A DNA stretch of 64,000 bases from Phycisphaerae bacterium (lineage in GTDB: Bacteria; Planctomycetota; Phycisphaerae; UBA1845; Fen-1342): NCBI GenBank assembly GCA_017999985.1, contig JAGNKU010000007.1, forward strand, positions 62,001 through 126,000. Direction: 5' to 3'. Below are positions 6,931-45,293 of the stretch, piece by piece (position 1 is the first letter of the stretch; every line of letters starts with the position of its first letter). The position numbers were made by a program, and so were the translations under genes. A model generated the notes under the pieces. It was not told where the DNA came from, ran no database searches, and saw only the letters and a program-made list of their open reading frames with translations.

Positions 6931-8244
6931 CTATCTGGTATCCGCCGTCGGATTCCAGCCGAATTCGCGGTGCAACAAGCCACCCAGCGTTCGCAAGTCG
7001 AGCGGCTCGGGCAGGTTGAGGCTCGTGCTCATCGCGAACGTCTCCGTCGCGCGACGGTGCAGGCCGCCGTGCGTGCCCTGCATCCTTACGAATCGGCTCA
7101 GCAGGCCGCTCCCGGCGAACCAGCACTCATTCAGACTCGCCACGAGGTCCGGTTGTTCCCGACAAAGGCAGAAAAGACCTTCCCACAACCTCTGGGGAGC
7201 CGCGGGGAAAGCCGCTTCGGCCGTGGCGGCCAGCCACGCGGACCCGTCTGCGAAACCCTCGTCGTCCATGCGGCCAGCGGCACGCAGGTTGGCGCAGGCG
7301 GCGGTGAGCTGGAGCGGGTCGCCGGTAATTGGTTCGTAACTGTAGCGGGCGGGCCCGGAACCGGTTGCGGAGCACCGGATGCGGGCGCTGGCCGGCCCGG
7401 CGTAGACCGCAAGACTGTCGCCGTCACGGGCCGCAACGAGTTCGATTTCTGGGCGGGCCCGCAGCGCCGCGATCGCCCGCGCGCGGGTGGCGGCGTCGGC
7501 GGTGTGCAGGCGGGCCGCATCGAGCAGCCCGAAGAGTGGCACGACGACGTCTCCCGGCCCCCTCAGACGGCGCGTGACGCGCAACCCGGTAGCGCGGAGC
7601 ACGCCGACCAGGTCGAATCGCCGGATCGCGGCCGACGGGCTGGGCAGTCGGCTGAGTCCATGGTCGGAAAGCATGACGATGTCGAGCGGCACGCCGGCGT
7701 CCGCCAGCACGTCTTCGATCCAGCGCTCCAGGCGCACGAGTTCGAGGTCGATGGCGGCGGGCGTAAGCATGTGGCCGAGGCCGTCGGTGCTGAGGATGTA
7801 GATGGCGACCTGGTGTCGGCCAGCGGCGAGACAGCGTCGCACGATCTGCCGCGCGCGACGCAGCTCGGCGTGGTAAACCCAGCGCGGCAACAGGTACATG
7901 ACGGCGTCTTTGAAGAAGCTGAGCCGGTAGTCGACGTGCCGCGCCCAGGCTTCGTTGGCGCCACGGAGGTACTGTAGAAAGCCGTTGGCGCGGCGATTGC
8001 GGCGGCGATCGAAGCCGCCGGCCTCGTAGCCAGGCGACGGGCCGGTGCCGAAGAGGTGGTCGTACGCCGGGTCGGTCAACGTGGGAAACACGGAGATGAG
8101 CCGGGCGGGGGGGCGGAAGCGGCGGAAGTGGCCGGCGTCGTAAAGGCCGCGCATGCGCTCGTACGCCACGCCGTCGAGCAACAGGAGCAGCCAGGGGCGT
8201 TGTGACCGGGCGGCGGACGCGGTCTGAGGACGGACGTGTGGCAT
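6931..8244 (-). CDS. Alkaline phosphatase superfamily protein (type I phosphodiesterase-like)
   Basis: The fold is recognised from metal-binding landmarks: an early LLLLDGV (first metal aspartate), SVFPTLTDPA with a candidate nucleophilic threonine, STDGLGHM, MLSDHGLSR and a late GTHGGLH histidine. This set is that of the nucleotide pyrophosphatase/phosphodiesterase branch, which hydrolyses phosphate esters with two zinc-like metals. No signal peptide is obvious, so a cytoplasmic location is likely. The substrate cannot be told. The start may be the ATG at 8244 or the GTG at 8247; a TAACAT element lies a few bases upstream and no Shine-Dalgarno is seen. Confidence 0.8.
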   Translation of the reverse strand: MPHVRPQTASAARSQRPWLLLLLDGVAYERMRGLYDAGHFRRFRPPARLISVFPTLTDPAYDHLFGTGPSPGYEAGGFDRRRNRRANGFLQYLRGANEAWARHVDYRLSFFKDAVMYLLPRWVYHAELRRARQIVRRCLAAGRHQVAIYILSTDGLGHMLTPAAIDLELVRLERWIEDVLADAGVPLDIVMLSDHGLSRLPSPSAAIRRFDLVGVLRATGLRVTRRLRGPGDVVVPLFGLLDAARLHTADAATRARAIAALRARPEIELVAARDGDSLAVYAGPASARIRCSATGSGPARYSYEPITGDPLQLTAACANLRAAGRMDDEGFADGSAWLAATAEAAFPAAPQRLWEGLFCLCREQPDLVASLNECWFAGSGLLSRFVRMQGTHGGLHRRATETFAMSTSLNLPEPLDLRTLGGLLHREFGWNPTADTR

Positions 8245-8281
8245 CACGCCGTATGTTAGCGGCGCGGGGTGCGCCGCGGAA

Positions 8282-9103
8282 TCAATTCAATGCCAGCAGG
8301 GCCGCATGCAATTGGCGCAAGTTGCGGCGAACGAGCTTTGAGTCGTGCGCGTTGGGCGAGCGGTGCAGATACAGCTCAAGATGAGCGGCGGCGCCGCGCA
8401 CGTCGCCGCGCCGGCAACAGACGGCGGCGAGGTCCTGCAGGTGCCGGCCGTTGCCGGGCTCGACCGCGCTCATGCGCAGGAGGATGTCGGCAACACGCGG
8501 CAGGTCATTGTGCGTGAGATAGATGTTGCGCAGGTTGCGCAGCAGCCGGAGCAGGATGCCGCGCGTGTTCACGGGCTTCAGGTAGTCCAGCGAGAAGCGC
8601 ACCTTGCCCTCGAAGCTGCGTTCGACGAGGTTTTGGCAGTCATCGAGGGTCAGCGTGCGGCCGGCGTTGAACGGGTCGGCCAGCACGAAGCGCTCGCGAT
8701 CATCGAACCGGACGATGAAGTGCCCCGGCAGTGCCACGCCGCCCATCGGCCACTTCAAACGCCGGCCGACTTCGAGCCACACGATCGAAAGGCTGATCGG
8801 GATGCCGCGGCGGGTGTCGAGCACGTGGTTCAGGTAGCTGTTCGCGGGATCGTAGTAGTGTTCTTCGTTGCCGATCAGGCCGTGTTGGTCGGCGATGACC
8901 TGGCGCAGCGCCTCGTAGCGCAGGTTCGCGCTCAGTCCCGGGCGGAGGTCGGCCACCGCGGCGGCCAGCGCGTCGAGCTGCTCCAGGTAACGTCGGATGT
9001 TGAGCGTCGGATAGACGTCGCGCGCGAGGTGCAGCGCGGCGCAGTCGAGCCGGATCTGGTCGGTGTCGAGCTCCATGAGCAGGTCGAATGGGTGGTAGCT
9101 CAT
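8282..9103 (-). CDS. SirB1-like transglutaminase-fold/TPR protein
   Basis: The middle of the protein has the SirB1/UPF0162-type transglutaminase-like core, with the YYDPANSYLNHVLDTRRGIPISLSI region and LPGHFIVRF, which includes the conserved histidine. The usual catalytic cysteine of transglutaminases is not evident, as is normal for this family. The C-terminal 100 residues look like tetratricopeptide-type helices. The function of the family is unknown. The ATG at 9103 gives 273 residues beginning MSYHPFDL; an ATG at 9115 and a GTG at 9139 are alternatives. It is divergent from the HEAT-repeat gene, with about 190 nt between the two starts. Confidence 0.8.
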   Translation of the reverse strand: MSYHPFDLLMELDTDQIRLDCAALHLARDVYPTLNIRRYLEQLDALAAAVADLRPGLSANLRYEALRQVIADQHGLIGNEEHYYDPANSYLNHVLDTRRGIPISLSIVWLEVGRRLKWPMGGVALPGHFIVRFDDRERFVLADPFNAGRTLTLDDCQNLVERSFEGKVRFSLDYLKPVNTRGILLRLLRNLRNIYLTHNDLPRVADILLRMSAVEPGNGRHLQDLAAVCCRRGDVRGAAAHLELYLHRSPNAHDSKLVRRNLRQLHAALLALN

Positions 9104-9276
9104 TCCCTTCCCCATGCCGAGCGACAGTGATTTCAACACACCAGCGATGCCCCGATCATAGCACTTTTCCAAGGCAAAATGCGAGTGCAAATCCGCGCGC
9201 TGGTTATCAGACGGCAGCCCGCGCGCGGCACGTTTCGGAACACGCGTGACGCGCGGTATTTGCGCTGCAGATCGGG

Positions 9277-9282
9277 TACAGT
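9277..9282 (+). promoter_or_regulatory. Candidate -10 box placing the next mRNA start at its GTG
   Basis: TACAGT lies 7 nt before the GTG at 9290, and no Shine-Dalgarno is present. That spacing would put the transcription start on the start codon. No convincing -35 is seen, so support is moderate. Confidence 0.4.
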
Positions 9283-9289
9283 GCGCCGC

Positions 9290-10189
9290 GTGTCCACACC
9301 GCCGTCCACGCCCGCGCGCTCCCAGCGCCGGTCGCGCCTGCCGCTGATCGTGATCGCAATCACGGCGGCGGCGTGCCTGGCAGCGCTCAGCCTGCGCACG
9401 CCGCTGCGGGCACGCTACTGGGCCTGGCGCGTGGCGCACGCGGCCAACCCGGCCGAGCGCGGGCTGCATCTCGGCGCGCTGTGCAACGCCGGCGACGGAG
9501 GCCGCTGGGGCATCGCGGCGCTATTGGCACATGCGGACCCTGAAGTTCGTCAGTATGGCGTGCTGAGTCTGCACTACCTGCGGACGGCGTGGGGCCGCGC
9601 GCGTTTGCTCGAACGGTTGCGCGATGCGGACGGCAACGTGCGGCGGCTGGCCGCGGTGGGCCTGGCCGTTCATGGCGACGACGGCGTGGTACCCACGTTG
9701 CGCGCACTCTATGAGTCCGGGGATTTGGACAGCGCCGTCGCCGCGTGCCTGGCACTGGAGCGGCTGGCTACACCGGCGGCCGTGGCGGCGCTGGATGCGC
9801 TGTCGCGCGTGCCGGCTGATCCTGACTGTCGCGCGGCGCTGGTCGACGCGCTCGAAGCGGTGGGCACGGCGGAGTGCGCCCCGGCGCTGCTGCGGCTGCT
9901 CGCGGACGGACGCGCGTGCACACTCGCACCGCGCTTCGAGGGAATCGAGCAGCGCGTGCTGGCCGGGCTGGCGACGATGAACCTGTCCGACTCCGACCTG
10001 CGCAGCCTCGGTCCTGCTGGTCCCCCGAGCACGCAAGCGACGCAGACTGTGGCCGAACGGGCGGCGGCGGCCCTGGCACGCATCACCGGCGTGCAAGCCG
10101 CCTTCTCGTCATCCGCGTCGGAGGCCGAGCGTGCCCAGGCAACTGAACGCTGGCAGGCATGGCTGGCAGAGCGGGCTGCGGAACGGTGA
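9290..10189 (+). CDS. HEAT-repeat protein with N-terminal membrane anchor
   Basis: The protein starts with a basic stretch (about residues 8-16) followed by a hydrophobic helix (LPLIVIAITAAACLAALSL), so it is probably anchored in the inner membrane. The remainder consists of repeated helical pairs of HEAT/PBS-lyase type, for example DPEVRQYGVLSLHYL, DADGNVRRLAAVGLAVHGDD and similar units every 30 residues. Such domains are protein-interaction scaffolds. The GTG at 9290 is preferred because a -10-like TACAGT sits 7 nt upstream; the frame itself remains open further 5'. It is the first gene rightward of a divergent pair. The partner is unknown. The next gene, an aminopeptidase on the other strand, also carries HEAT-like repeats. 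Confidence 0.75.
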   Translation: MSTPPSTPARSQRRSRLPLIVIAITAAACLAALSLRTPLRARYWAWRVAHAANPAERGLHLGALCNAGDGGRWGIAALLAHADPEVRQYGVLSLHYLRTAWGRARLLERLRDADGNVRRLAAVGLAVHGDDGVVPTLRALYESGDLDSAVAACLALERLATPAAVAALDALSRVPADPDCRAALVDALEAVGTAECAPALLRLLADGRACTLAPRFEGIEQRVLAGLATMNLSDSDLRSLGPAGPPSTQATQTVAERAAAALARITGVQAAFSSSASEAERAQATERWQAWLAERAAER

Positions 10190-10434
10190 GCCGCACCGCG
10201 GCAGCGCAGAAAAATGGCGGCCGCCCACAGAACACCCTCGCGGGGTGAAAGGCGAACCGCCCCGCCGGCTCTCACGCCAGCTAGTGAGAAGAAGCTACTG
10301 CAACATACCGTGCGACGGCCGCCTGTCCAAGCCGCAGCGATAAGGGTTTTCCCTAATAGGGGTCGTTTTTTGCGTGTCGGCTGACGCCAGCCGAAGAGCC
10401 CGCCGCGTGCGGCAAAGCGCGGCGCCCGCCGGAC

Positions 10435-13014
10435 TCACTCGGGAATGTTCTGCAGCGCTTCCTTGGCCGTGTTGCGGACGGTTTCGCTTGGGTCACCCTC
10501 GGCGATTTCCTTCAGCAGTCCCCGGCTCGGCCCCGCGTGCGCTGCCAGCTCGCCCAGTGCGTGGGCCGCAGCGTTTCGCAGGCGGGCGTCGCTTTCGCGC
10601 AGATTCGTGTTGACGGTGCCAAGCACGGCGTCGATGACATCCGGCTCGAGCGGACCGACCTCCGCCAGGCGCGCGGTCGCGCGCGCTACCGCCGCCAGGG
10701 CGGTCTGGCGGCAGGTGCGCGGCTTGCCGCTCTGCGTCCACTCGACGAGCACGCTCAGCGTGGGGGCGTCCGCGTGTTCGCCGAGCGTCTCGAGCACGCG
10801 CTCCTGCACGGGGGCGCGCTGCCGGTCGTGCCCCAACACCCGGCATAGCAGCGCGAGCTCGTCGCGCGCGTGCAGCTCCGCGTAGGTGGTGACGGCGGTG
10901 CTGAGCACGCGTTCGCTCGAGTCGCCCTGCGTCAGCACGCGGCCCACCGCCTGGATCACCGCCTCGTCGTCCGGGAAGGCACGCAGCGCTTCCAGGCAGG
11001 TCTCCCGCACGCGTGGATGCGGGCTGGCTAGGACTTCCAGGAGCGCATCGCGGGCCGTGGCGCCACCGAGTTCACCCAGCGCCCGGGCGATCTCGCACTG
11101 CACGGCCCAGAACTTCTCACTGCGGAGCGCGTCGGCCAACAGCCGGACAATCAGGCTGGCGGGTGCGGGACCGGCCTCCGGAGCCGGGCTTGCCGGGTAC
11201 ACGAGTGATCCGGTCTGCGCCGTGCTGCGCTCCTCCGCGACCAGATGCTGTAGGGCCTGCAGCCGCCCGACCACGTGCGGGTCCGCGGTAAGCTGCGTGA
11301 TCCAGAGGTCGCGCCCCTTGTGCTCCGTGAGTTCCATGAGCAGCGTGTGGCCCGGGTCGACGCGCACCATCGTCGGGCGCCGTGGGAGCGGCACGGCCAC
11401 CCGGTGTTCGCGTTCGGTGATTCGCTGCGTGACGGTCACCGGGGCCTGCCCGGCGCCGGTCGTGAACTCGAGCGTCAGCGGAAAGTGGAACGGCGCAACC
11501 GGCGTGTTCTGCGGATCGTCGGGCGCGACCTGCGTCTGACGGACCGTGACTTCGGCCAGCTTCGCTTCCTCCTGCCAGTCACACGCCACATCAACCACCG
11601 GGTGGCCGGCGCGTTCCGTCCAGTCGTGGAAAAAACGCCCCAGGGTCCGCCCGGTCGTATCCTCCAGCGTGCGGCGCAGGTCCGCAGTCTCGACACTGTT
11701 GTTGGCGTACGCCGTGCAGAAACGCTGCAGCCCGCCGAAGAAGGCCTCGTCGCCGAGCTGCGCCCGCAGCATGTGCAGGACGCAGGCGCCCTTGCTGTAG
11801 CTGCGATCGTTGAAGAGGTCCCAGGGATTGTCGTAGTAGCGCTCGACGATCGGCCCATTCTTGCCGTCAGCAAGCGCCCCCTGCGCCTTCTGGTACATGC
11901 AGTGGGCGAACTCGTCCGGACCCAGATCGTGCTCGATCCACAGCGCTTCGAAATAGGTCGCGAAGCCCTCGTTGAGCCAGAGCTGCGGCCACTCGCGGCA
12001 GGTCAGCAGGTCGCCCCACCACTGGTGAGCCAGCTCATGGGCGATCAGTGAATCGGAATCGTTGTCCAGCCGGGTCGTGGCATCGCACAGGGCGTCGACC
12101 CCGAGCGTCGTGGCACTGGTGTTTTCCATGCCCCCACCGAACTGGTAGCAGCACACCTGGGCGTACTGGTCCCACGGATACTTGACGCCGATGCGCTCGC
12201 TGAAGAACTCCAGCATCCGCACGGTGTTGTCGAACGTGGCGGTCACGTCGGCCGCGCGGTCCGGCGGCACCCAGTAGGTCACCGGCACGTTGCGCCACTG
12301 TTCTTCATGCACGTGGAATTGCCCAACCACCAGCGTGATCAGGTACGCCGGGTGCGGCGACTCCTGCACCCAGTGATAAACCACGCGCTCATCCTGCCCG
12401 GCCGCGTGTCGCGCGGCCAGCCGCCCGTTCGACAGAACCTGGCACGACGCATCGACGGTGGCCACGATTTCGGTGCTCTGCCGTTCGTTGGGCTCATCGA
12501 AGCAGGGGATCCAGTAGCGGTTGTCGCTGGTCTCGCCCTGCGACCATACCTGCCAGGGCGCGTCAGGATCGTCGACCGTCGGCCCGAAGAAGTGCAGGCC
12601 GGACTTGGGACTCTGCAACGCGTAGTCGATGGTGATGACCAGCTCCTGGCCGGGCGCAACGGCCGGTTCCAGGAGGATCTCGATGCACCGGCCGTCGTTG
12701 GCATACTCCGGTGCCACCGCCGCCTGACCGTCCACGGACAATGACACCGTGTGCGTCTCGAAGTCGACCGCGTCCAGCTTGACCGTGGTCACCCGCCGTA
12801 GCGGCGTCATGCGCAGCATCGCGCGACCGTCCACGTGGCGGCGTGGGATGTCAATGGCCAACTCGAGTCGGATATGCTGCATGTCCAGCGGGCGGTCGGC
12901 AACAAAGTGTGGCCCGTCGGCGGCCAGGGCCAGCGCGCCCACACACAGCGAGACCAATGCCACCGCGCGGCACCACTGCGCCGCGCGCCCGCTTAGACCC
13001 ATGTCCGCGTGCAT
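10435..13014 (-). CDS. M1 family aminopeptidase with C-terminal HEAT-like repeats
   Basis: The start at 13014 follows a GGAGGT Shine-Dalgarno and begins a signal peptide (cleavage near ALALAADG), so the enzyme is exported. The M1 metallopeptidase signature is complete: GGGMEN substrate-binding loop, zinc ligands H326 and H330 in HELAHQWW, catalytic E327, and third ligand E349 in NEGFA, 18 residues on. M1 enzymes remove N-terminal residues from peptides. The last 240 or so residues, with ALGELGGATARDALLEVL and related units, form HEAT-like repeats replacing the usual ERAP1-type tail. The protein is 859 residues long. It is divergent from the sugar dehydrogenase-like gene, with 225 nt between starts. 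Confidence 0.92.
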   Translation of the reverse strand: MHADMGLSGRAAQWCRAVALVSLCVGALALAADGPHFVADRPLDMQHIRLELAIDIPRRHVDGRAMLRMTPLRRVTTVKLDAVDFETHTVSLSVDGQAAVAPEYANDGRCIEILLEPAVAPGQELVITIDYALQSPKSGLHFFGPTVDDPDAPWQVWSQGETSDNRYWIPCFDEPNERQSTEIVATVDASCQVLSNGRLAARHAAGQDERVVYHWVQESPHPAYLITLVVGQFHVHEEQWRNVPVTYWVPPDRAADVTATFDNTVRMLEFFSERIGVKYPWDQYAQVCCYQFGGGMENTSATTLGVDALCDATTRLDNDSDSLIAHELAHQWWGDLLTCREWPQLWLNEGFATYFEALWIEHDLGPDEFAHCMYQKAQGALADGKNGPIVERYYDNPWDLFNDRSYSKGACVLHMLRAQLGDEAFFGGLQRFCTAYANNSVETADLRRTLEDTTGRTLGRFFHDWTERAGHPVVDVACDWQEEAKLAEVTVRQTQVAPDDPQNTPVAPFHFPLTLEFTTGAGQAPVTVTQRITEREHRVAVPLPRRPTMVRVDPGHTLLMELTEHKGRDLWITQLTADPHVVGRLQALQHLVAEERSTAQTGSLVYPASPAPEAGPAPASLIVRLLADALRSEKFWAVQCEIARALGELGGATARDALLEVLASPHPRVRETCLEALRAFPDDEAVIQAVGRVLTQGDSSERVLSTAVTTYAELHARDELALLCRVLGHDRQRAPVQERVLETLGEHADAPTLSVLVEWTQSGKPRTCRQTALAAVARATARLAEVGPLEPDVIDAVLGTVNTNLRESDARLRNAAAHALGELAAHAGPSRGLLKEIAEGDPSETVRNTAKEALQNIPE

Positions 13015-13239
13015 GCACGTACCTCCAGGCGCCTTCGCGCCAACCGGGAATTCTAGGCGAAATCGCCATCCGACCGAAAGCCGCCGCGGGCGCCGTCGCA
13101 CGGCCCGCAGGGTGGCTGCGCCCCCGTCCGGGGACATGTGACGGCGGCGTTTTCCGCGCTGCCCCTTTTGCTCATTCCCGCCGCCCATTAACATCTCGGC
13201 ACGTTCACACAACCGCCGGACGGCGGCACGGAGACAAGT

Positions 13240-14394
13240 ATGCGACGAATGGGAACCTGCGTGCAGTGGGCGGCCCTGACCGCGATTGGAACCTGGTGTG
13301 CAACCGGCTGTGTGCCCGCGACGGACGGGCCCGAACCGATCAACGTGGCGGCCGGCTGGCAGGCGGAGTACGTGGTCGCCGACGCCGCCCAGCCCACGGC
13401 GCTGGCCTTCGCGGCCGACGGCCGCGTGTTCTACACGGAAAAGAGCACCGGCAACATTCGCGTGGTGAGGGATGGCGTGCTGGCCGCGCAGCCCCTCGCC
13501 AGCGTGCCGGTCAATTCCGCCGGCGACCGCGGCCTGCTCGGCATCGCCCTGCACCCGCGGTTCCAGGACAACCGGCGGGTGTACGTGTTCTACACGCGCT
13601 CGGACACCGGTGCCTCCACCGACGACCCGCGGGCCTTCATCGACCATCGCGTTGTGTATTTCGTAGTCGATGAGGCCGAGGGCGTCATCAGCACCAGCGG
13701 CGAGACATTCGTCGCGTCTATCCCCGTGGGCGAAGCGACCACGCGCATCGGCGGGCGCATCGCGTTCGCCGCCGACCGCACGCTGCTCGTCGCCGTCGGC
13801 GATGGCACCGATGTCAATGCCGCCCAAGATGACGAGCTCTACTGGGGCAAAGTGCTGCGGTACAACGACGACGGTACGATCCCGGACGATAATCCCGACC
13901 CGGCGTCACCGATCTACGCGCGCGGCTTTCGCGAGCCGCGTGGCCTTACGCTCGACCCGGACAGCGGCTATGTCTTGCTGATCGAGCGCAGCCAGGACGG
14001 CCTGCACGAGGTCAACCGCCTGCAATCCGGCACCAACTATGGCTGGCCGCTCGTCGTGGGCTTTGCCACGACGCCCGACGAGCTCGCGTTCGTCGCCGAG
14101 CACGACGACTATGCGGACCCCATGATGGAATCGACGCACCAGTTGGTGGGTGGCGGCGTGAACCCGAGCACGCGCTACGGAACGAGCCTGCTGCTGCGGC
14201 TATTCTTCGGCTGGAACGAGGCTGCCCGCGTGGCCAGCGTCGCGCTATCCCCGGAAGGCACGGCGACGGTCGGCGTCGCCGAGAAATTCGCGACGGGCCT
14301 GCCGACGCCGATCAACGACGTGGCGTTCACGCCGGCGGGCACGCTCTACATCGCGACGGATGACGCGGTGCTGCGCGTTGTCGAAGCGCCGTAG
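13240..14394 (+). CDS. PQQ-type glucose/sorbosone dehydrogenase-like lipoprotein
   Basis: The N-terminus is a lipoprotein signal with an ATGC lipobox (Cys24). The rest resembles the six-bladed propeller of soluble glucose dehydrogenases and Hedgehog-interacting-like proteins: FAADGRVFYTEKSTGNIR, GLLGIALHPRF, YGWPLVVGF and GTLYIATDD. Known members oxidise sugars using pyrroloquinoline quinone, with a histidine base near the second blade; here the LHPRF histidine fits. It would be held at the outer membrane or the periplasmic face. A GGAGACAAGT stretch precedes the ATG. No PQQ biosynthesis genes are in the window, so cofactor use is uncertain. 384 residues is usual. Confidence 0.87.
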   Translation: MRRMGTCVQWAALTAIGTWCATGCVPATDGPEPINVAAGWQAEYVVADAAQPTALAFAADGRVFYTEKSTGNIRVVRDGVLAAQPLASVPVNSAGDRGLLGIALHPRFQDNRRVYVFYTRSDTGASTDDPRAFIDHRVVYFVVDEAEGVISTSGETFVASIPVGEATTRIGGRIAFAADRTLLVAVGDGTDVNAAQDDELYWGKVLRYNDDGTIPDDNPDPASPIYARGFREPRGLTLDPDSGYVLLIERSQDGLHEVNRLQSGTNYGWPLVVGFATTPDELAFVAEHDDYADPMMESTHQLVGGGVNPSTRYGTSLLLRLFFGWNEAARVASVALSPEGTATVGVAEKFATGLPTPINDVAFTPAGTLYIATDDAVLRVVEAP

Positions 14395-14554
14395 TGCCGG
14401 CCGGGCACGGTGCGCGCAGCACACTACCGGCGCGACAGAGCGCATCGCTACAGCGACTTCGCAGTCAGCGCTGAGATCCGGCCCGATGGACACCGCCCCT
14501 GCGCGACGGTCGCGGCACATCGCCGCGTGCGTCACTGACGCCGGGAGCACGCCG

Positions 14555-14785
14555 CTAGCGGGACAGCTCCTCCTGCAACTCACGCTCCGCCTGCAGCCAA
14601 TCGGAGTGCGCGTCGCCAGGGCCGCCGTTACGCCGTTTGAAGATCTCAAAGGCCCGCGCGCGAATCTGCTCTTCGCTCGGCATCGGCTTCGTGCGGCTCT
14701 TGGTCACGCCGGTGGTGCTGGTGGTTGCCTTGGAGGCGGTGCTCCTGGCTGCCGTGGGGGACTTCCTGGTGGTTTGCTTGGCCAT
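14555..14785 (-). CDS. DUF2934 family small protein
   Basis: This 76-residue protein has a lysine-, serine- and threonine-rich N-terminal tail followed by the DUF2934 core: EEQIRARAFEIFKRR, a glycine-rich turn, then DWLQAERELQEE. DUF2934 proteins are short, helical and of unknown function. They are often found in Planctomycetota, Acidobacteria and some proteobacteria. The basic, TTRKSPTAARST-like tail suggests nucleic acid contact, as in histone-like tails, but this is inference. A GGAG lies upstream of the ATG. The gene stands alone between a convergent lipoprotein gene and an open stretch of about 500 nt. Confidence 0.9.
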   Translation of the reverse strand: MAKQTTRKSPTAARSTASKATTSTTGVTKSRTKPMPSEEQIRARAFEIFKRRNGGPGDAHSDWLQAERELQEELSR

Positions 14786-38063: not shown

Positions 38064-40037
38064 TCAACCGCCCGTAGCCGACCCGCGACTGCGCAGCCGC
38101 TCGAGCGCCTGCGGCAGCATGTCGAGCAGATAGTCACAGCCTTCGCGAAAGGCCGTCACGTACTCGCGATCGCGGCGCAAGCGCCGGCGGGCCGTCGTCG
38201 GCGTTTCCGGCACGCCGTCACGGATCGCGCGGTCCGCATGCAGGCGCCGCAGCTCCGCCTTCTGGGCCACCTGGCTGACCATGTTGTAGGTTCGCCCGTG
38301 CCGCTGCATTTTCGTCCGCAATTCATCCATCCGCAGCACGCGCCGGTTGAACGCGTCGCGCCGGTCCAGCAAACCGGTCAACTCGTCCAGCAGCGCGATC
38401 GTCTCGGTCGCCGTCTGCCGAATCTCGCGCAGCTCCGCCAGCCGCTGCTCCAGCGCCGCACACGCGGCCTGCAGCGCGGCCGTCGCCGACGGGGTCGGCG
38501 GGCTGGCCAGCAGGTCCGCCGGCAGCGGGCGCGTGCAGAACTGCCTGGCCGCGGCCCGCAGCGTCATAACCTCCGTCCCCTCCAGCCGCATCCCGCCCTC
38601 GCAGGCATGGATGATGCGCGTCTTTGTCGCCAGAAACTCCGCCTGGAACTGCTCGGCGTAGGTGCGCATCTGCTCGTCGGTGTAGGCGTCGCGCCCGTGC
38701 ACATCCTTCACGACCGTCAGCACGCCGCGCGACCGCACGATCCGCTCCCATTGCTTCATCTCGATGGTCTGAAAGCGGCTGAGCTCCGGGCGCCAGATCC
38801 GCTCGATCGGCATCCCGGGCGGGTAGTAGAGCCCCTCGCTGAACGAGAGATCCTGGCCGACGAGAATCACCGGATCGCAGCCGAGGTGCTCGGCGAGATA
38901 GAAGGCGAGGTGTGCCACCGTGCTGCCCGCGCGCAGCCCCGCCCGCCGCGGTGCCGCCTCGCGCAGAATGTCGTCCAGGAATTGCGAATGCAGCACGTGC
39001 ATCCGTCCGCGAAAGGCGTCCAGCACGTGCCAGGACACTTTCGGCTCGGCGACGAGGACCGTGTCGCCGAAGTCCGGCACGCCGCGGAAGAACTCCGCCG
39101 AGAGCTCGTGGTAATCGAGGCTGGTGACGAAGTGCGGCTGCACGCCGCGCGCCAGCAGCGTCTTCAGCACGGTCTGAACGGCAATGATGACCGCGTGGTC
39201 GCGCAGGCCCGCGAGCTGATCGATGTTGCGCGCCAGGGACGGGCCGGCTGCAACCAGGATGGCGGGGTAGCCCGCCGCGCGGCCCGCGAGCACTTCCACG
39301 CTCGGATGCACCAGGTACGCCGGCAGGTTGAACGCCGCGTTCCGGCACGTCGTCCGCGCGTTGCGCACGACGGAGACCATCTGCAGGCGCGCGAAGCCGG
39401 CGAAGTCGCGCATCAGCCGGCTGATCTCGGTGTGAAACCGCGTGTGATAGCGGTGCATGTGGGCCGGATTGATGAAATGCAGACCGAGCATGAGCGGCGT
39501 CATGATCGGCCGCAGTCGCTCGTGCACGGCGGATTTGTCGGCGGACGTGAGGAACGTCAGGCGGCGCTCCCGCAGCGGGACGGTTAGGTCGGTCACACAC
39601 AAGGCGGCCTTGATGAGGGCTACGTCGTCCTCGGCGATGATCAGCAGCGCCTGCGTAAAGCGGCGCTCGATCTCGGCGACGTGATATCCCAGGCCGAGGC
39701 CACCCACCAGAAAGCAAAGGTGCTCGAGATCCTCCTCCGGCCTGTCGTCGCCCCCCGCCGCGTCCGCGCCGCGCTGCGTCTGGGCCTGCACCAGCGCCCG
39801 AGCCTCGTCCACGGGGTGGTAGCGGCTGTGGGCGTAGATGGGCCGGCCGTCATCCGCGGCCAACCGCACGGTGACGTGGCCGTCCCGCGTCGGCTCCAGC
39901 GGCGGTAGCGCGGCGAACGGCAGAGCGTCGACGCGTCCCGCCAGCTCGGGATCGGTCGCGTACAGTTCCGCCAGGTTGGCGAGGTAACGGCGTAGAGAGG
40001 GTGCTGAGACGTCGCAGGACGGGGCGGCAGGCTCCAT
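38064..40037 (-). CDS. Maf/DUF115-family glycosyltransferase (motility-associated factor)
   Basis: The centre of this 657-residue protein has the DUF115 core: ILVAAGPSLARNIDQL, VQTVLKTLLARGVQPHFVTSLDYH and VILVGQDLSFSEG. Maf proteins attach nonulosonic acids to flagellin; DUF115 enzymes have a sialyltransferase-like fold. The C-terminal region is a predicted coiled coil rich in A, L, E and R. The ATG at 40037 is preferred because a perfect TTGACA element lies upstream in suitable position and no Shine-Dalgarno exists. A FliN-like gene and a polysaccharide operon are close by, but no nonulosonic acid synthesis genes are seen. Confidence 0.88.
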   Translation of the reverse strand: MEPAAPSCDVSAPSLRRYLANLAELYATDPELAGRVDALPFAALPPLEPTRDGHVTVRLAADDGRPIYAHSRYHPVDEARALVQAQTQRGADAAGGDDRPEEDLEHLCFLVGGLGLGYHVAEIERRFTQALLIIAEDDVALIKAALCVTDLTVPLRERRLTFLTSADKSAVHERLRPIMTPLMLGLHFINPAHMHRYHTRFHTEISRLMRDFAGFARLQMVSVVRNARTTCRNAAFNLPAYLVHPSVEVLAGRAAGYPAILVAAGPSLARNIDQLAGLRDHAVIIAVQTVLKTLLARGVQPHFVTSLDYHELSAEFFRGVPDFGDTVLVAEPKVSWHVLDAFRGRMHVLHSQFLDDILREAAPRRAGLRAGSTVAHLAFYLAEHLGCDPVILVGQDLSFSEGLYYPPGMPIERIWRPELSRFQTIEMKQWERIVRSRGVLTVVKDVHGRDAYTDEQMRTYAEQFQAEFLATKTRIIHACEGGMRLEGTEVMTLRAAARQFCTRPLPADLLASPPTPSATAALQAACAALEQRLAELREIRQTATETIALLDELTGLLDRRDAFNRRVLRMDELRTKMQRHGRTYNMVSQVAQKAELRRLHADRAIRDGVPETPTTARRRLRRDREYVTAFREGCDYLLDMLPQALERLRSRGSATGG

Positions 40038-40043
40038 GAGGGC

Positions 40044-40073
40044 AGTTTCGGCCCAGGAGCGCCGGCTTGTCAA
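40044..40073 (-). promoter_or_regulatory. Possible promoter of the Maf gene
   Basis: TTGACA (40068-40073) is perfect. The best -10 at suitable distance is GAAACT (40044-40049) with an 18-nt spacer, which is weak. The ATG follows 6 nt later, as in the other leaderless candidates. Confidence 0.35.
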
Positions 40074-40368
40074 CGAGCGGCGGCCGTGTGTCCGGAAGAC
40101 ATGGTTTTCAGCGCTGGCGAACCGCCGGCGCGCACCCGATCACGGTCGCGCTCCCCGTGGCCGGGCCGACGTCAGGCTGGGTACGAGGGACGGCGCGTTT
40201 TTTTCGTCGGAAGCGCTCAAGAATTCGCACGCGCGCGGCCGATCGTGGAGGGCGTGGAGCTGCGCTGGCCATGGATGGCCCGCCGGGCAGCGGTTCGCTG
40301 CACCGGCACTCGTGAGAGAACCCAGTTCGCCCCACGCACAACGAGAGGCATCCCAGAGGAGCGCCCGC
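40074..40368. other. Intergenic region, nothing firm
   Basis: Between the divergent Maf and small-protein genes no coding frame with a start signal is seen. A T7 run (near 40197-40204) occurs without a convincing hairpin. The region must hold the promoter of the small gene at 40369, but no clear hexamers were recognised. Confidence 0.35.
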
Positions 40369-40659
40369 ATGTTCAAAGAGGCTGTCGCGAGCACGGTTAC
40401 GGTTCCGAGTCCCGCCGTAGTCCTAAAGTCCTCGGCCTTGCCGCTGGACACTGTCTGCTCGCCGGGCGCCTATGTCTGCAACTGGAGCGGGCACCTGTTA
40501 CGCGTGCCATCGGGCAGCTTGGCGACCACCGGCACACTGGCACTCAACATCGTGGGCGGCGAGCCGCTCACCGTGACGAAGATCAGCGACGACCCTGATC
40601 TCCCCCTGCCCCAGGCGCGCGGCCTGGCGTGGCGCCTCGGCTTGAGCGTCGGCTTCTGA
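40369..40659 (+). CDS. Small protein of unknown family, paralogue 1
   Basis: The 96-residue protein starts at an ATG preceded by AGAGGAG. It has no signal peptide or membrane helix. Its core contains PGAYVCNWSGHLLRVP and EPLTVTKISDDPDLPL, and these segments recur almost unchanged in the protein at 41160. I do not recognise the family. The conservation of a Cys-Asn-Trp and a Gly-His-Leu-Leu stretch, together with alternating hydrophobic residues, suggests a small beta-rich domain, perhaps a ligand-binding module. Two spaced paralogues beside an rRNA operon are unusual. The existence of the gene is well supported by the paralogue; its function is not. Confidence 0.75.
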   Translation: MFKEAVASTVTVPSPAVVLKSSALPLDTVCSPGAYVCNWSGHLLRVPSGSLATTGTLALNIVGGEPLTVTKISDDPDLPLPQARGLAWRLGLSVGF

Positions 40660-41159
40660 GTCCACGTCTTCCGACAGGCATCCGACAACCGTGAGCGCCA
40701 GCCGGGCCGTACCGGCACCGCAGCGTGCGCGCTCCGCGTTGCGGTTACGTGCGCCGCGCGGCAAAAAACTGACGGGCGAACGCGCACCAACGGAATCCGA
40801 CAAGTGTTGTGATTTGACTTTCGCGCGCGCGTGTGGAAGACTCCTTATGCGCGTGGCGGGCCATAGCTTTGTGGGTCAACGTGGTCCGCGCAACCACGCC
40901 CAAGCGGGCCAAGAGTCGCCAGGAGGGGAAGAAAGCGCGTCCTTGGGCGCCAAGTGCCGGCGACTCGTTCGTCAACCCGGAGAATCACCGTCCGCGGCTG
41001 CAGCATGGACGCCATTCTCCGGATCGCGCGCACCACTGGCTCCGAGCGTCGTATGCCTTCTGGAAGAGCTTCGGACCAGCTGGGGCCCGCCACTCGCGCT
41101 TGATCCGGCCCGCGGAGCGCGGCTGGCCTCGCCCAGCGACGGGGAAACGGAGGTCACGG
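40660..41159. other. Intergenic region between the two paralogues
   Basis: No credible gene is seen in these 500 nt. A TTGACT occurs at 40814-40819 inside an AT-richer patch, but no good -10 follows. Other frames here are open only because of the base composition. Confidence 0.35.
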
Positions 41160-41441
41160 ATGATGCTTGGCGTAACCGAACACACGCAGGCTGGCTGGAT
41201 CGGACTCGTGCCGCCGGGGGTCAGCATTCCATTCGACTCGATTCGGGCCCCGGGCACGTACGTCTGCAACTGGAACGGCCATCTGCTGCGCGTGCCGGAG
41301 TCCGCGCTGGTGCCCGACGGAGTCATCAACCTCGTCGGCCCCGAGCCGTTGTTCGTCACAAAGATCAGCGATGACCCGGCGGTGCCACTCGGGCGCGCCA
41401 GGCAGGTGGCAACGGATATGCAGCTCGCCGTCAGCTTTTAG
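41160..41441 (+). CDS. Small protein of unknown family, paralogue 2
   Basis: The start at 41160 (ATGATG) follows GGAGGT by 6 nt. The 93-residue product shares with the protein at 40369 the segments PGTYVCNWNGHLLRVP and EPLFVTKISDDPAVPL, a similar spacing between them, and a C-terminal AR-A-L-V-SF-like ending (AVSF versus SVGF). The first 25 residues differ. There is no export signal. The family is not recognised. The two copies diverged well before now, yet kept the core, so it is probably under selection. It converges on the 5S rRNA gene. Confidence 0.78.
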   Translation: MMLGVTEHTQAGWIGLVPPGVSIPFDSIRAPGTYVCNWNGHLLRVPESALVPDGVINLVGPEPLFVTKISDDPAVPLGRARQVATDMQLAVSF

Positions 41442-41610: not shown

Positions 41611-41721
41611 AGCCGGCGATCACCTACTCTTGCCCGATCAGGACTACCATCGGCCGGGCGGGCTTAACTACTGAGTTCGGAATGGGATCAGGTGTGGCCC
41701 CGCACGTAAACTCACCGGCAG
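41611..41721 (-). rRNA. rrf: 5S ribosomal RNA
   Basis: The minus strand contains the conserved 5S core (CCCATTCCGAACTCAG, then GCCGATGGTAGT) and terminal complementary ends (TGCCGG with CCGGC). The length is about 110 nt. It follows the 23S gene and precedes a terminator. The ends are estimated to within a few bases. Confidence 0.95.
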
Positions 41722-41857
41722 TTCGTGTGCCCGCCGCGCGGGGGCGCGGCGGACGTGGCACTCAAAGTATGGCGATAGGTGGGATGAACGGGTAGACCGC
41801 GCCGGCGGTTCTCGGGTTGGTGCGTCTTGCATTGGGGCTGCCCAGCGGATCATAAAT

Positions 41858-44711
<2,854 letters not shown>

Positions 44712-44977
44712 TTTATGAAACGCTGCGGCCAAGACGCACCTTCTCTCCACTGTCGGAGATCAGGATTCTTAACGAGAGAACCAAGTCCGCCCCGTCCAGC
44801 ATCCTCGCGGACGCCAAACGGGCGCCGACTCGAAATCCGGTTTGGATACCCATTCATACCCACCTATTCACTTGTCACAGACCGCGCGACCCTCAGGCCG
44901 CGGCCCGCGGTTGCAGGCTTTCAGGCACCCGTCGGTGCCCAGAAGCGCACAACCCACAGACCAGGCTGCCGATCCAC

Positions 44978-45050
44978 TGGAGCCGACCGGGATCGAACCG
45001 GCAACCTCCGCGTTGCAAACGCGGCGCTCTCCCAACTGAGCTACGGCCCC
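44978..45050 (-). tRNA. tRNA-Ala (UGC)
   Basis: On the minus strand the acceptor GGGGCCG pairs with CGGCTCC (one G-U pair), the D arm is GCTC/GAGC, the anticodon loop is TTTGCAA giving UGC, and the T arm holds TTCGATC. The discriminator is A and CCA is not encoded. It occupies the usual rRNA spacer position before 23S. Confidence 0.96.
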
Positions 45051-45093
45051 GGGGCCATTGACCAGGTCACGCCTAGTCGCACTTGCCGGTGCC

Positions 45094-45180
45094 TCAGGTC
45101 CCGCCGCCGCGGAAGAGCCGCCAGGCGAAGAACCCAACTATAGCCACTAGAGCTATAAACTGCAACGTCGCGAGGTCCAC
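45094..45180 (-). CDS. Possible miniature membrane protein in the tRNA spacer
   Basis: Between tRNA-Ile and tRNA-Ala, on the transcribed strand, a GTG at 45180 preceded by GGAGGT (45185-45190, 4 nt away) opens a 28-residue frame: a near-perfect transmembrane helix (LQFIALVAIVGFFAW) followed by RLFRGGGT and a stop. The frame extends upstream to a GTG touching the tRNA end. Against it: the segment is also a hairpin (TATAGC/GCTATA), the codons ATA and CTA are rare here, and spacer RNA is normally removed. Real coding status is uncertain. Confidence 0.3.
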   Translation of the reverse strand: MDLATLQFIALVAIVGFFAWRLFRGGGT

Positions 45181-45219
45181 CGTGACCTCCGCCGGCTCAC
45201 TTTCGTTGCCGGCCACCAC

Positions 45220-45293
45220 TGGGCCCGACAAGATTCGAACTTGTGACCTCGTCCTTATCAGGGACGCGCTCTAACCAACTGAGCTACGAGCCC
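45220..45293 (-). tRNA. tRNA-Ile (GAU)
   Basis: The acceptor GGGCTCG pairs with CGGGCCC (one U-G pair), the anticodon loop CTGATAA gives GAU, and the T arm carries TTCGAAT. The discriminator is A and no CCA is encoded. It is the first gene of the operon, immediately downstream of the promoter region, where a 16S gene would normally stand before it. Confidence 0.96.

Follow-up and report, generated by a model that had tools for sequence, protein, structure and literature searches.

A family of small proteins with an invariant C-terminal phenylalanine, almost confined to one order of Phycisphaerae

Two short open reading frames (copies A and B, Table 1) follow one another between a Maf/MptE-like gene and a set of rRNA genes in the window, the whole 64,000-nucleotide stretch of Phycisphaerae DNA analysed here. 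Do they belong to a known family, and what might their products do? An earlier note had described them as paralogues of 96 and 93 residues, each with its own Shine-Dalgarno sequence. Both observations hold. Both ORFs lie where the note placed them. Their products align with BLASTP E 1e-27 and 54% identity over 74 residues, a likeness far above chance level, and share the motifs YVCNW[S/N]GHLLRVP and VTKISDDP[DL/AV]PL exactly. They are encoded by separate genes. A GGAG-type sequence is present ahead of both ATGs (AGAGGAG for copy A and ACGGAGG for copy B) and also precedes the start codons of most relatives. A search of the window's genome identified no third copy, and no sigma70 promoter was found in a scan of this stretch. 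The GC3 of the family genes shows no clear difference from that of their neighbours (+0.025, sd 0.072).

Table 1. Positions of the two small genes and of their neighbouring features in the window
Feature	Position	Strand	Description
Copy A	40369..40659	+	96 aa, MFKEAV...SVGF; core residues about 22-96; C-terminal residue Phe
Copy B	41160..41441	+	93 aa, MMLGVT...AVSF; core residues about 20-93; C-terminal residue Phe
Shine-Dalgarno region, copy A	40351..40368	+	TCCCAGAGGAGCGCCCGC; read from sequence
Shine-Dalgarno region, copy B	41142..41159	+	GGGAAACGGAGGTCACGG; read from sequence
Maf/MptE-like protein	38064..40073	-	669 aa; PF01973 E 1e-37; divergent neighbour, outside the small-protein family
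5S rRNA	41611..41719	-	Rfam; convergent, incidental neighbour

Both genes are members of a family of proteins of about 95 residues that is almost confined to one order of Phycisphaerae (Planctomycetota). A first search found relatives in 28 of 61 genomes, the window's own being counted among the 28. An order-wide profile search retrieved the family from 51 of the 114 genomes of the order and from 21 of the 27 genomes of the window's own taxonomic family. A sample of the phylum gave three clear cases among 293 genomes other than the window's, and one locus was found in Zixibacteria, from a bin. Most of the relatives that carry a name are MAGs of Phycisphaerae/Phycisphaerales or Planctomycetota. 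Presence is patchy inside the order, and many genomes carry a single copy alone. One additional candidate, G142, gave a weak match (E 1e-3) that was lost with a larger profile and was left out of the counts.

Conservation was assessed in alignments of 26 and of 69 members. In the larger one Gly33, Tyr35 and the terminal Phe96 are invariant (copy A numbering), as is the start Met, by construction since the script chose the start codons of the relatives. Gly41, Leu43, Arg45, Val69, Thr70, Pro76, Ala83 and Ala87 are nearly invariant. All 69 complete members end exactly on Phe, with no residue beyond, compared with 3.6% of 442 neighbouring called ORFs. The N-terminal tail is rich in Thr, Asn, Gln and Ser in 43 of the 69 members, compared with 2.9% of the neighbouring ORFs, and the first residues of the members are not conserved. 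Cys36, Trp38 and His41 (copy B numbering) of the CNWxGH motif are missing in distant members, so that these three residues probably do not make up an active site or a constant metal site; no catalytic triad or constant set of metal ligands is evident in the family alignment. Simple hydropathy identified no signal peptide or membrane segment, and the highest 19-residue value among the members (1.34) does not indicate a membrane helix.

Purifying selection acts on this family. Core dN/dS (Nei-Gojobori) lies between 0.03 and 0.35 among the closest unsaturated pairs listed; it is about 0.16 between copy B and its relative in G010, 0.14 for copy A and its relative in the same genome (from dN and dS) and about 0.38 between the two window paralogues, values that are rough because synonymous sites are close to saturation in several pairs but that are all far from 1. 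They bear out the selection which the earlier note had read from the conserved core. Tandem copies recur across several genera, with pairs in G000, G009, G014, G016 and G026, and the two copies of G010, located at contig ends in compatible orientation, probably form another pair. The nearest relatives of copy A are L047 (G010) and the first copy of L043 (G014), both also adjacent to Maf, while that of copy B is L039/L033 (G010), 71% identical. In a tree drawn from a short alignment, with many forks unresolved, the copies sort by type: copy A falls with G010, G014 and the first copies of G016 and G026, whereas copy B joins G010 and the G016 second copy. Since the closest relatives of each copy belong to other genera, the duplication is older than the genus and copies A and B are old paralogues.

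Searches of Pfam, NCBIfam, PHROGs, PADLOC and the PDB sequences gave no member a convincing match. The best Pfam row, DUF742 (E 0.0025), concerns only one of 26 members. The only PDB sequence matches below E 0.001 were designed propeller proteins, and these were rejected because their E-value sums up to 8 repeats, each contributing only about 4 bits. None of the papers searched contains the motif string. In AlphaFold2 models, pLDDT is about 80-92 across most of the core and below 50 in part of the tail. Copy B (26 sequences) reached 81, its five models spanning 52 to 81, and copy A (69 sequences) reached 75. The predicted secondary structure comprises one hairpin, one more strand and a helix, and the models of the two copies differ in detail. 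Foldseek against PDB and viral models returned nothing reaching E 0.001, and the best VIA Z against solved folds was 3.4. Sequence and fold searches thus gave no strong match to a characterised domain family, in keeping with the earlier suggestion that this one may be undescribed. It is new as a sequence family absent from Pfam, NCBIfam, PHROGs, PADLOC and PDB; UniProt, AlphaFold DB or other InterPro members could hold an unnamed cluster.

The position of the genes "beside the rRNA operon" had also been pointed out. A convergent set of 5S, 23S, tRNA-Ala and tRNA-Ile genes does adjoin them downstream (window 41611-45293), but it includes no 16S gene and the link is not kept in relatives. The only 16S gene found in the genome is carried by another contig (G000:C10:99769-101347), so that 16S and 23S appear unlinked, the spacer tRNAs having stayed with 23S. 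Apart from the window, there is no rRNA match at loci L033-L077. Among L114-L137 the sole and distant case is L116 (G170), where no more than about 3.3 kb separates the family gene (7822-8172) from 5S and 23S genes (11415-14656), probably by coincidence. These negatives are limited by the many contigs that end early. Linkage to rRNA was therefore rejected as meaningful for the family, since it is not conserved among the relatives' loci.

Other neighbours vary between clades. In one set of relatives a PMT-like glycosyltransferase gene precedes the family gene and a multihaem-cytochrome-like gene follows it. In the window's taxonomic family, about 9-12 relatives carry next to Maf a protein of 545-547 aa (L052:4349-5983, minus strand) that seems to begin like a nucleotidyltransferase and contains a radical SAM domain, PF04055 being its sole match; an amylase-like gene occupies this position in the window. 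In L126 (G394, 8033-12852) the family gene lies beside a histidine kinase and an NtrC-like regulator. A MinD/ParA-like ATPase and a sigma-70 region 2 protein come next, and the arrangement resembles what would be left of a flagellar cluster collapsed onto its regulators.

Motif discovery upstream of all members retrieved the Shine-Dalgarno sequence only, and searches for sigma54 and sigma28 promoter patterns upstream of the family genes were negative except for one sigma28-like match in L074. One clade (L051, 8371-8390; L042, L119, L122, L126, L128, L131 and L046) carries a palindromic element, GACAATTGGCGCCGATTGTC, some 60-80 bases ahead of the start codon. Two of its pairs are changed on both sides in some sequences, and it is a candidate leader hairpin or operator. 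It was found neither ahead of the window's genes nor as repeats elsewhere in the carrier genomes. A second clade (L050, L058, L060, L124, L127, L129 and L132) shows a conserved motif, about GCCCCAATTTGCCGTAAATG, some 170-210 bases upstream.

What might these proteins do? We tentatively favour a small, soluble, cytoplasmic partner-binding protein, of the adaptor or regulatory kind, which would dock through its hairpin face and the free carboxylate of its terminal Phe. The predicted beta-hairpin (GxYxCNWxGHLLRVP), together with another strand (VTKISDDP) and a helix, would form a compact domain closed by the invariant Phe, with a flexible tail, often rich in Thr, Asn, Gln and Ser, ahead of it. 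Hairpin face and terminal Phe would together contact the partner, in a presumably cytoplasmic location, and each tandem copy may serve its own partner or condition by a division of labour. Against docking, the terminal Phe may merely pack into the fold. The variation of neighbours between clades, the differences between the two models and the failure to match a solved fold also weigh against this reading. Enzymatic, nucleic-acid-binding and structural roles are alternatives to partner binding. It is rather unlikely, although conceivable, that both the fold and the mode of action are undescribed, the terminal Phe being a tag recognised by some lineage-specific regulatory system and the tandem copies specialised versions. 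The remaining probability, beyond the readings considered here and below, falls to functions outside them.

An accessory role in the flagellum, either through co-regulation or through export by the flagellar type III apparatus by means of the Thr/Asn/Gln/Ser tail, is an unlikely alternative for which gene order provides most of the arguments. In the window's taxonomic family, the gene is adjacent to and divergent from that of Maf, a flagellin-glycosyltransferase-like protein, in 14 of the 19 genomes having both. In L042 it lies upstream of TPR, FlgN-like, kinase, NtrC, FlgB/C-like and FliE/F-like genes, the FlgN match being sub-threshold and the names of the rod, FliE and FliF genes coming from sequence resemblance only; parts of this order also occur in L119, L128 and L051. 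FliM lies 3.5 kb away in L125 and flagellin 6 kb away in L131, and the composition of the tail would suit an exported protein. However, a single event, passed on by descent, may account for each conserved arrangement, and the linkage is observed in some clades only, partly through shared descent. Of the order's 114 genomes, 110 have flagellin and only 51 have the family. Moreover, G394 (98% complete) and G006 (87%) keep the gene and show no FlhA, flagellin, rod or Maf matches, and the G394 copy is under purifying selection (dN/dS 0.09 against L051). Retention without flagellar markers disfavours a strict flagellar role, although both genomes are drafts.

Binding of RNA or DNA by a small SH3-like barrel is likewise doubtful. 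The best structural rows, weak as they are, correspond to the SH3-like region of ribosomal protein L2/L8 (VIA Z up to 3.4 over 51-56 residues). However, Z values below 4 are background and a second model yields other rows. The calculated pI of 5.0-6.5 is acidic to neutral, and there is no Pfam KOW or L2 match.

Cargo of a mobile element, such as a toxin-antitoxin pair or a phage gene, would account for small tandem genes with a patchy presence. It is nevertheless very improbable: the two genes are homologous to each other, many genomes have single copies, positions are stable within the family, and plasmids, phages, viral contigs, PHROGs and PADLOC gave no match. An MbtH-like partner of an adenylation enzyme, suggested by the same strand-strand-strand-helix order, is less credible still. 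Several such entries appear among the Foldseek rows (E 1.7-4.6, probability up to 0.12; VIA Z 2.0), but PF03621 matches none of 26 members, MbtH matches are missing from the window's genome and turn up in just 4 of the 294 genomes sampled from the phylum, and residues invariant in MbtH are absent. Homology was rejected by profile comparison, hhalign giving a probability of 0.05% against 8 MbtH proteins. Chance or non-coding ORFs, which can be long in GC-rich DNA, are refuted: the proteins are conserved from genus to genus, dN/dS lies well under 1 and Shine-Dalgarno sequences are present.

Small proteins that have no known function and occur in one lineage only are common. With no relative in the libraries searched, the present finding defines an uncharacterised gene family under selection, which can now be recognised by a profile comprising GxYxCNWxGHLLRVP, VTKISDNP and the terminal Phe. 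The newness concerns the sequence family only, and no new kind of mechanism is indicated. Should the terminal Phe serve as a docking tag, the partner it binds would indicate regulation specific to planctomycetes.

Three known systems are nearest in appearance. Designed PQQ-type beta-propeller repeats (Cake, Scone) include a hairpin, GxxYVxxxxGHLYxI, that resembles GxYVCNWSGHLLRV of the family, whose proteins however hold one such hairpin and no repeats. MbtH-like proteins (PF03621) are likewise small, with three strands followed by a helix, the order predicted for the family, but their W, GW, C and W-D-RP positions are absent from it. Finally, the SH3-like domain of ribosomal protein L2/L8 overlaps weakly in structure, although the overlap is not reproduced with the second model, there is no sequence match and the proteins of the family are mildly acidic.
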